From Pirellulales bacterium (lineage in GTDB: Bacteria; Planctomycetota; Planctomycetia; Pirellulales; Lacipirellulaceae): a stretch of DNA of 64,000 bases. This document shows, piece by piece, positions 1 to 59,084 of the stretch (position 1 is the stretch's first letter; every line of letters begins with the position of its first letter). The position numbers and the translations under genes were made by a program. The notes under the pieces are model-generated. The model was not told where the DNA came from. It saw nothing but the letters and a program-made list of their open reading frames with translations, and searched no databases. The stretch is taken from NCBI GenBank assembly GCA_022448265.1, contig JAKVCC010000007.1:1-64000 (forward strand). The letters are read 5' to 3'.

Positions 1-361
1 CCACCGTCACCTTGTGCAGCAATTACACAAAGCATCGGCGGCTTTTTTGAATCTTCGCGGTAGTTGTAGGCTGCATTAGCGTTTCTCCATGTGACCTGAG
101 ATCGGAACTGCCCCAAGTGTATATAAGCGCCTGGGGTGGTGCAAAGGTTTTACGTACAGAAAGCCTGCAACGGCACGCGCCAACCACGCTTTTTGCCGAG
201 AAAACGGCCCTGGGTTGGCATTTCATCGCAACGTACAGAAGCAAGTGTGGTTTCGGCCATAACCCGCGATGATTCCGGCGGACCGTACAAAATGCTAAAA
301 TCGCCGTCCGAACGGTTATTGATGCCAAAATCGCCACGACGTGGCTGGCTAAGGACAAACA
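1..361. other. no gene recognised at window start
   Basis: Short overlapping ORFs exist on both strands, but none has a recognisable family motif and none is long. The stretch lies directly before a truncated ytoQ start and may hold its promoter or the flank of the tRNA-Gln element. Confidence 0.4.
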
Positions 362-1579: not shown

Positions 1580-1993
1580 AGTGACAAGGATGCCATGCTC
1601 AAGCGGGTGGCTACCCATCAAGAAAAATTCAGTACGCAGGAGCGGGAACGAATTATTGACTTGGTGTGTGCTGCAAGCCTAAGTGACGATGCGAAATTAC
1701 TGGTCGAGGTGGGCAAGAAGGCTGGTGTTGTCGTGAACCCTAAGACCAAGAAGTGTGCATCGGCTCACGATCTGCGAAGGGCGTTTGGACAACGCTGGGC
1801 GACTCGCGTGATGCCTCAGATACTGATGCAGCTAATGCGGCACTCGGACATCACAACCACGATGAAGTATTACGTTGGCAGCGAGGCAGAGATCACTGCT
1901 GACATGCTCTGGGATGCCGTCGCAAAGGAAGAGTCGAATCTAGGTACCATCTTAGGTACCAGGCGGAAGAGGCCAATCAAAAAACCCCTATAA
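1580..1993 (+). pseudogene. tyrosine recombinase C-terminal fragment at tRNA-Gln
   Basis: The frame contains the C-terminal catalytic part of a phage-type integrase: ASAHDLRRAFGQRW holds the HxxR box, and LMRHSDITTTMKYYVG holds the second His and the nucleophile Tyr. The N-terminal arm-binding and core-binding domains and the first catalytic Arg are missing. The likeness begins around position 1580, and upstream the frame lies inside the nuclease gene. The stop (1991-1993) lies seven bases from the 3' end of the oppositely oriented tRNA-Gln, the usual position of an integrase gene next to its att site. It contains two GGTACC hexamers six bases apart near its end. It is probably inactive. Confidence 0.8.
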
Positions 1994-1999
1994 AACAAG

Positions 2000-2070
2000 C
2001 TGGGGAACTAGGATTTGAACCTAGACTGACGGATTCAGAGTCCGTAGTGCTACCGTTACACTATTCCCCA
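2000..2070 (-). tRNA. tRNA-Gln (CUG)
   Basis: The reverse complement folds as a tRNA. The acceptor stem pairs TGGGGAA with TTCCCCA, with discriminator G at 2000. The anticodon arm is ACGGA/TCCGT around loop CTCTGAA, giving anticodon CTG. The T-arm contains GGTTCAAATCC. U1-A72 and G73 are typical of tRNA-Gln. CCA is not encoded. The 3' end faces the recombinase fragment and probably served as an attachment site. Confidence 0.95.
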
Positions 2071-39193: not shown

Positions 39194-39532
39194 TTGAGAA
39201 ACGTTCGACTGACGGCGCGAACACACCCGGAAGTGGCCTGCGAATGGATTGGCAACAGGGCTGCGATCGCCAGTCAGCACTACCTTACGGTCACCGACGC
39301 CCACTTCGCCAAGGCGGTCTGCACACCTGCCGACCAACGTGGCGCAAAATCCGGCGCACTTTCTGTCGAAAAGGGAGCGCAGCATACGCTCGCACCGACA
39401 AGCACAGAGACGAAAAACATAAAAAAAGCACGGAAAGACCAAGCTGTGGTGCAATTCCGTGCAACTGAATGCGACAGTGAATATGTATTCACAGTACCCC
39501 GTAGGGGAGTCGAACCCCTGTCTCCGCCGTGA
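39194..39532 (+). pseudogene. tyrosine recombinase C-terminal fragment at tRNA-Glu
   Basis: THPEVACEWIGNRAAIASQHYLTVTDAHFAKAV resembles the final catalytic segment of planctomycete phage-type integrases, in which W-I-G-N and H-Y-L hold the last part of the active site with the nucleophile Tyr. Nothing upstream encodes the rest of the enzyme. The frame continues into the 3' half of tRNA-Glu on the opposite strand and stops at 39532, the usual overlap of an integrase with its tRNA target. It belongs to a different integrase subfamily from the fragments at tRNA-Gln and tRNA-Leu. Confidence 0.7.
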
Positions 39533-39567
39533 GAGGGCGGTGTCCTGGGCCACTAGACGAACGGGGC
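39495..39567 (-). tRNA. tRNA-Glu (CUC)
   Basis: The reverse complement folds with acceptor GCCCCGT/ACGGGGT (first pair a G-U wobble) and anticodon stem CCGCC/GGCGG around loop CTCTCAC, giving anticodon CTC. The T-arm is AGGGG-TTCGACT-CCCCT. CCA is not encoded. The 3' end is overlapped by the recombinase fragment. Confidence 0.95.
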
Positions 39568-58363: not shown

Positions 58364-58447
58364 GCCGGAGTGGCGGAATTGGCAGACGCGCTGGATTCAA
58401 AATCCAGTGACCGCAAGGTCGTGGGGGTTCAAGTCCCCCCTCCGGTA
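58364..58447 (+). tRNA. tRNA-Leu (CAA)
   Basis: Class II tRNA of 84 bases: acceptor GCCGGAG pairs with CTCCGGT (first pair G-U), discriminator A, anticodon stem CTGGA/TCCAG around loop TTCAAAA giving anticodon CAA, a long variable arm (TGACCGCAAGGTCG), and T-arm GGGGG-TTCAAGT-CCCCC. CCA is not encoded. A recombinase fragment ends inside its 3' part. Confidence 0.95.
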
Positions 58448-58638
58448 CTTTGAAAACAGGGTTTTTCTGATTCGCCCTGCTGCTCATCTTGGGCAATGGT
58501 ACCTAAAGTGGTACCCAAATCGCCTTCGACCGCTGCCCATAACTCATCGGCTGTCGCTTCGGCATTCGCGCCAACGTAATACTTCATGGTCGTGGTGATG
58601 TCGGAATGACGCATTAGCTCCCGCAAGACGGTCGGCAT
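58429..58638 (-). pseudogene. tyrosine recombinase C-terminal fragment at tRNA-Leu
   Basis: VMPTVLRELMRHSDITTTMKYYVG then ATADELWAAVEGDLGTTLGT is the end of a phage-type integrase, close in sequence to the fragment at tRNA-Gln (they share LMRHSDITTTMKYYVG and LGTxLGT). The likeness begins just upstream, at W-R-V. The catalytic HxxR box and the rest of the protein are missing. The stop lies inside the 3' end of tRNA-Leu, on the opposite strand. Confidence 0.78.
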
Positions 58639-58708
58639 GACCCGCCAAAGAATCGAAAGAGTCTGATAAATATGGCCTCAACAAAGAGGTATACAAATCC
58701 CAATCTCA

Positions 58709-58837
58709 TCAGCCTACCTCGTTGTCTAATTCTCGTTTCGTCCATTCTTCTCGCAAGTGCCGTCGCATGATCTTGTTGGACGCCGTACGGGGCAGACGCT
58801 CAACGAGCACCACATCGTGCCGCATTTGGCGGTTCCC
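58709..58837 (-). pseudogene. C-terminal tail of an AMP-dependent acyl-CoA synthetase
   Basis: A minus-strand frame reads VVLVERLPRTASNKIMRR, then HLREEW, ending at TGA 58709. This is the last segment of acyl-CoA synthetase/ligase proteins, with the catalytic Lys in T-A-S-N-K. Upstream the frame loses similarity after about 40 residues, and no AMP-binding domain is present. It is a relic at the tRNA-Leu site. Confidence 0.65.
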
Positions 58838-59084
58838 ACCCGAGTGTCTTCATGGCCGTGCGGGCCGATGGTTCCGTAAGGCCAGTCAGGTTCGACGTGG
58901 ACTTGGCCGTGTTCAAAGCGTTCTGCTCGCGGGATGATGGAGGTGTGGTGGATTCGGAAGACTTATAAGCCAGGGTGAGTAACTTGCAAACTTGCCGCCC
59001 CTTTATCTATCCTGGGTGCAGCGAGGAATTGCCGGCACCAGCATGAGATGTTTTACTCAAACTCACAAGGAACGAGAGATCGCA

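Follow-up and report, generated by a model that had tools for sequence, protein, structure and literature searches.

Integrase gene tails at the 3' ends of tRNA genes in a Pirellulales genome are very probably the att-site ends of lost integrative elements

Results

Each of the three tRNA genes has the end of an integrase gene at its 3' side

The window, by which is meant the whole stretch of 64,000 nucleotides that was analysed, contains exactly three tRNA genes according to ARAGORN, which are tRNA-Gln(CTG), tRNA-Glu(CTC) and tRNA-Leu(CAA) (Table 1). When the 3' flanks of these genes are matched with profiles built from full-length integrase relatives, the C-terminal tail of a tyrosine integrase is found on the opposite strand at each of them, as the original prediction had claimed, with E values of 1e-39 at tRNA-Gln (profile positions 295-380 of 401), 4e-19 at tRNA-Leu (positions 336-394 of 401) and 2e-16 at tRNA-Glu (positions 335-409 of 433). 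All three fragments can also be aligned with full-length integrases, where the segments LMRHSDITTTMKYYVG and WIGNRAAIASQHYL fall on the C-terminal motif of the catalytic domain, including the nucleophile tyrosine. Two integrase families are present, family A at tRNA-Gln and tRNA-Leu and family B at tRNA-Glu, in agreement with the earlier assignment of the Glu fragment to another subfamily. The near-identity proposed for the Gln and Leu tails holds for the motif LMRHSDITTTMKYYVG, which is common to both, but not for the whole tails, which are only 52% identical.

The open frame of the tRNA-Gln tail reaches upstream to position 1448, with clear homology only from about 1682, and its stop lies 6 nt short of the tRNA gene. 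The other two frames enter their tRNA gene, by 38 nt at tRNA-Glu, as in the intact relatives, and with a stop at 58429 at tRNA-Leu. About 40-100 C-terminal codons are kept in the tails, so that none of them is a complete PF00589 integrase gene, and the Pfam model PF00589 recognizes only the Gln fragment of the three, at 21.8 bits, which is below the cut-off of 27.1 bits. At all three loci, as in tRNA-integrated islands, integrase sequence lies beside the 3' end of a complete tRNA gene.

The fragment of an acyl-CoA/AMP ligase gene that abuts the stump at tRNA-Leu is further decayed DNA of the element side. At tRNA-Gln, an ORF of 343 residues (502-1533) that lies to the element side of the stump has weak similarity to NucS endonucleases (NCBIfam, E 1e-4, far below the cut-off; Pfam NucS_C, E 0.04) and is possibly leftover cargo.

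Table 1. Features of the three tRNA loci in the window
Feature	Position	Strand	Remark
tRNA-Gln(CTG)	1999..2070	-	probable restored target gene
tRNA-Glu(CTC)	39494..39567	-	probable restored target gene; intact family-B integrase here in three congeners
tRNA-Leu(CAA)	58364..58448	+	probable restored target gene
Family-A tyrosine integrase, C-terminal fragment, facing tRNA-Gln	1682..1993	+	profile match
Family-B tyrosine integrase, C-terminal fragment, at tRNA-Glu	39197..39532	+	profile match
Family-A tyrosine integrase, C-terminal fragment, facing tRNA-Leu	58449..58644	-	profile match
Acyl-CoA/AMP ligase gene, C-terminal fragment, abutting the tRNA-Leu integrase fragment	58709..58846	-	NCBIfam E 8e-5
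Direct-repeat pair, 12-bp spacing, GGTACC 1943-1948 and 1955-1960	1941..1961	+	candidate arm-type sites in integrase codons
Direct-repeat pair, 12-bp spacing, GGCGCA 39341-39346 and 39353-39358	39341..39358	+	candidate arm-type sites
Direct-repeat pair, 12-bp spacing, GGTACC 58498-58503 and 58510-58515	58497..58515	-	candidate arm-type sites

Integrase remnants are found at other tRNA genes of the genome

The full set of tRNA genes numbers 46, and the flanks of each were scanned with the integrase profiles, as the original prediction had proposed. An integrase remnant is present on the 3' side of eight of the 46, and nearly all remnants are on this side and on the opposite strand; the three truncated integrases noticed at first are real, but they do not represent the full extent. 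Remnants with E <= 1e-13 are seen at tRNA-Gln(CTG), tRNA-Leu(CAA), tRNA-Asp(GTC), tRNA-Met(CAT), tRNA-Glu(CTC) and tRNA-Val(CAC), and weaker ones, with peptide and arm repeats that are still readable, at tRNA-Arg(TCT) and tRNA-Lys(TTT). The integrase at tRNA-Val(CAC), which lies at a contig end, could be complete, and the other seven remnants are truncated or decayed. The earlier statement that only the C terminus remains is correct for the three window genes but is not a rule, as the remnant at tRNA-Met corresponds to profile positions 20-164, which is the N-terminal half, with the catalytic part lost.

The only intact PF00589 genes found in this genome are XerC and XerD, both above the curated cut-offs. 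In 13 congeners the number of PF00589 matches varies from 2 to 23 per genome, and these are mostly long frames. The absence of an intact copy, which had been called unusual, is indeed unusual when compared with most congeners; the assembly, however, is a draft of 87 contigs, in which several tRNA 3' flanks stop at contig ends, and islands, which are easily lost from such assemblies, may be missing.

A decayed integrase with its N-terminal and catalytic parts in different frames (C87:152845-153640, L039) lies near tRNA-Arg(CCT) and tRNA-Ser(TGA) and faces no tRNA 3' end. A family-A tail is also found on the 5' side of tRNA-Arg(TCT) (C15:24290-24500; L009, L199), whose 3' side has a tail as well; the 5'-side tail is fused to a repeat of about 300 bp (described below) at the same residue as the tail at tRNA-Asp.

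Intact relatives in the order have the same layout

Relatives of both families were searched for in 146 genomes of the order, and many were found. At most of the 60 loci that were inspected closely, a tRNA gene faces the 3' end of the integrase gene. The stop codon of family-A genes mostly lies no more than a few tens of nucleotides from the tRNA gene, family-B frames mostly enter it by about 30-70 nt, and relatives integrated next to a tRNA gene have complete frames of about 390-530 residues. Judged from these sequences, a tail facing a tRNA gene is the normal anatomy of these integrases, and truncation the abnormal part. Short frames make up about three-tenths of the family-A matches in the order (counted by eye), so that decay is common; losing every intact integrase is less common than decay itself.

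The tails form no single group, most of them being closer to integrases of other species than to one another. The nearest relative of the tRNA-Leu tail is the integrase L065, which in another genus occupies the corresponding tRNA-Leu(CAA), the nearest relative of the tRNA-Lys tail is L053, with which it has arm repeats in common, and the tRNA-Gln tail is nearest to integrases other than these two. These separate lineages, together with the intact relatives that face tRNA genes, bear out the earlier proposals of an integrase origin, of a position on the att side and of repeated, independent integration. The differences between the tails and functional relatives are mostly at codon position 3 (for the tRNA-Leu tail and L065, there are 7, 6 and 22 differences at codon positions 1, 2 and 3, respectively), so that the tail genes were for the most part of their past constrained at the protein level, and truncation came late.

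The same tRNA sites differ in occupancy among related genomes

The sister groups of this genome are Lacipirellulaceae and other Pirellulales, and the orthologous tRNA genes were taken from 29 related genomes. At the tRNA-Glu locus, where the 5' neighbour is in each case the ABC-transporter gene, a complete family-B integrase is present in G152, G151 and G103, only the tail is present in this genome, its DNA being about 70% identical to the intact copies, and no integrase is recognizable in G131, G115, G127, G149, G147, G153 and G154. At the tRNA-Leu site, integrases of families A or B occur in two other genomes among the 29, and at the tRNA-Gln site in no other genome of this set. In a wider named survey of tRNA-Glu, the tRNA gene lies beside the ABC gene in 12 of the 80 loci, none of them with a family-A or family-B integrase. 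On the 3' side, zero genes are common to this genome and its relatives, and the borders of the elements can therefore not be drawn.

In G131 (L180), G115 (L181) and Lacipirellula limnantheis (L222), about 75 nt of the tRNA-Glu 3' flank, including a terminator-like hairpin, resemble the element-bearing flanks, without an integrase. These flanks are either older scars or a common native flank, and since this stretch is shared with element-bearing congeners, the exact border between host and element DNA is uncertain at tRNA-Glu.

A check for direct repeats of the tRNA 3' ends, also proposed originally, gave no displaced copy for the three window tRNA genes within the window. Outside it, in an assembly-wide search covering copies of at least about 40 bp, there is no partial copy of tRNA-Gln or tRNA-Glu at E <= 1e-12, and the sole match of tRNA-Leu is another tRNA-Leu gene. 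The window loci thus have, in this search, neither the displaced tRNA end of a tRNA-integrated genomic island nor the second att site that would make them CIMEs (attL and attR without an integrase). In the congener G103, 57 bp from the 3' part of tRNA-Leu recur with 96% identity and without the rest of the gene (G103:C76:3682-3738, L172), as would be expected at the far end of an integrated element.

Direct repeats with 12-bp spacing are embedded in the tails

The direct-repeat pairs of the tails (Table 1) have the form GGTACC-N6-GGTACC at tRNA-Gln and tRNA-Leu and TGCGCC-N6-TGCGCC at tRNA-Glu. In the flanks of the 46 tRNA genes of this genome, period-12 repeats of at least 6 nt are found in 12 of the 3' flanks versus three of the 5' flanks, with about three expected, and when at least 7 nt are required the counts are nine and one, with about one expected; among the other periods from 8 to 20, none is as prominent in these flanks. 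The period-12 repeat is also present at 36 of the 48 integrase-bearing loci elsewhere, and in several congeners pairs with 11-bp spacing occur at fixed distances, for example at +62 to +64 at tRNA-Leu(CAA) in five genomes. In family B there are two codon phases for the word GGCGCA, even inside one gene (AAQNAAQ and GAxSGA), which argues that it is kept as DNA and not as protein.

Arm-type sites are direct repeats near the att core that are bound by the N-terminal domain of the integrase, and the 12-bp-spaced repeats sit where such sites are expected. It is probable from their arrangement that the repeats in the last integrase codons are arm-type sites, which the integrase would bind. At tRNA-Cys, tRNA-Pro(GGG) and tRNA-Ser(GCT) the repeat is present and little or nothing is left of an integrase; such flanks, and the 11-bp-spaced pairs of the congeners, look like older scars, and the occupancy by recognizable integrases then understates past integration.

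Discussion

The tails as probable remains of integrative elements

The integrase fragments are very probably the att-site ends of former integrative elements, which resided in the 3' parts of the tRNA genes and were later lost by deletion. An element (a genomic island, integrative element or prophage) would have entered the 3' part of the tRNA gene by site-specific recombination, with its integrase gene convergent with the tRNA gene, such that the last integrase codons came to adjoin or overlap the 3' end of the tRNA gene. The elements would then have been lost from this lineage through deletions. The separate integrase lineages and the absence of a displaced tRNA end point to decayed integrative elements. 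Deletion, as originally proposed, is suggested by the intact elements at tRNA-Glu in three congeners and by the codon-position-3 bias of the tails. The accompanying idea that deletion spares the integrase 3' end does not hold in that form, as the tail is merely the part adjacent to the tRNA gene, and the opposite outcome is seen at tRNA-Met. The tail would often be the last recognizable piece because a viable deletion must stop before the indispensable tRNA gene, and a special mechanism is unneeded.

It is conceivable, although unlikely, that the tails are kept by selection, because the element brought a transcription terminator for the tRNA gene on the other strand of the last integrase codons. 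At tRNA-Glu, the kept region includes a hairpin with a T run behind it, both here and in G103, similar sequence persists in the integrase-free flanks of G131, G115 and Lacipirellula limnantheis, and terminator selection is possible at this locus. However, terminator-like sites are limited to 2 of 21 flanks in family A and to 10 of 27 in family B, where several of them consist of arm repeats, and there is no such site at tRNA-Gln or tRNA-Leu, so that terminator retention is not a general cause of the tails.

Less credit still is given to the stumps being non-autonomous elements, in which stump and att arm would belong to a two-att element that relies on a complete integrase acting in trans, in the manner of CIMEs or trans-mobilized islands. 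The stumps do retain the tRNA-side att region with the candidate arm sites, and both at tRNA-Asp and 5' of tRNA-Arg(TCT) a family-A tail is joined, at one and the same residue, to the repeat of about 300 bp. What makes this reading very improbable is that the three window tRNA genes have no second copy of their 3' end and that the tails belong to different integrase lineages. For most loci these lineages also rule out the copying of one mini-element to many tRNA genes, which is possible solely for the pair at tRNA-Asp and the 5' side of tRNA-Arg(TCT).

That integration itself split the genes into int(N) and int(C), leaving fragments at tRNA genes without any deletion, as suicidal (SSV-type) integrases do, can practically be dismissed: family-B frames overlap the tRNA gene and hence have att inside the gene end, but the complete frames of integrated tRNA-adjacent relatives, in which integration restores the gene end, refute such splitting, and according to the literature suicidal integrases occur in archaea only (PMC8371274). 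The likeness to the archaeal integrases of SSV, pTN3 and pT26-2 (PMC8371274) lies in the position of att within the integrase gene, whereas here the overlap with att is limited to the last codons and the gene is complete in integrated relatives.

Relation to known systems

As probable att-site ends of lost elements, the tails resemble several known systems in part. CIMEs are cis-mobilizable, integrase-less derivatives of ICEs in which both att sites are kept. As in CIMEs, the integrase has been lost from an integrative element and att-side DNA is retained, but no second att site was found at the window loci. In KplE1/intS-type prophages it is reportedly the integrase promoter that overlaps attL, whereas here it is the 3' coding end that overlaps att DNA. 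The two have in common that attachment-site DNA of a tRNA-associated element overlaps integrase gene sequence (PMC2951348). Islands of the Islander class, which target tRNA genes and are recognized by an integrase and a displaced tRNA fragment, likewise restore their tRNA target and have a tyrosine integrase gene at the tRNA end; the present loci differ in that the integrase is truncated and a displaced fragment was not found, which marks them as remnants (PMC4383910). Integrases at tRNA genes, tRNA-restoring islands and integrases that extend across attP, such as those of Mx8 and SSV, are known already (PMC4383910).

Integrase scars at tRNA genes are thus well known, and the new detail is the 12-bp-spaced repeats, which are embedded in the last codons and persist in the stumps; a partial search of the literature gave no account of such arm-like repeats in the 3' coding ends of planctomycete integrases. 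A repeat with 12-bp spacing about 35-140 nt after a tRNA gene could serve as a cheap fossil signature of past integration, whether or not the integrase is still recognizable. By this hidden repeat, a scar is recognizable at roughly a quarter of the tRNA genes of this genome, and with the signature the gain and loss of elements at tRNA genes could be tallied across this phylum, in which islands seem to be little studied. Genomes that are poor in elements can be former hosts of many.

A further-reaching proposal, to which only a small chance is given, is that the last codons of Pirellulales integrases also serve as arm-type sites of the integrase itself, with hexamers 12 bp, or four codons, apart, and that the stumps are att arms usable by an incoming related integrase. 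If this is true, stump-bearing tRNA genes would be favoured landing pads.

A repeat of up to about 300 bp near tRNA genes

Window positions 1-218 and contigs C13, C15, C6, C7, C17, C67 and C78 of this genome, G000, carry copies of a repeat that is at most about 300 bp long (L199-L205, L206-L218). It has 12-13 copies in the genome, several of them 3' of tRNA genes, and among the congeners a single, weak match is seen in G131, with no match in 12 others. Within the repeat there are a very short ORF (MQPTTTAKIQKSRRCFV) and a palindromic stretch with T runs, and as an RNA family the repeat has no Rfam match. The start of the window contig (1-218) and the end of C13 (C13:69136-69330; L201, L210) share about 156 bp with 98.7% identity, which indicates that both are interrupted at this repeat and may be adjacent in the genome.
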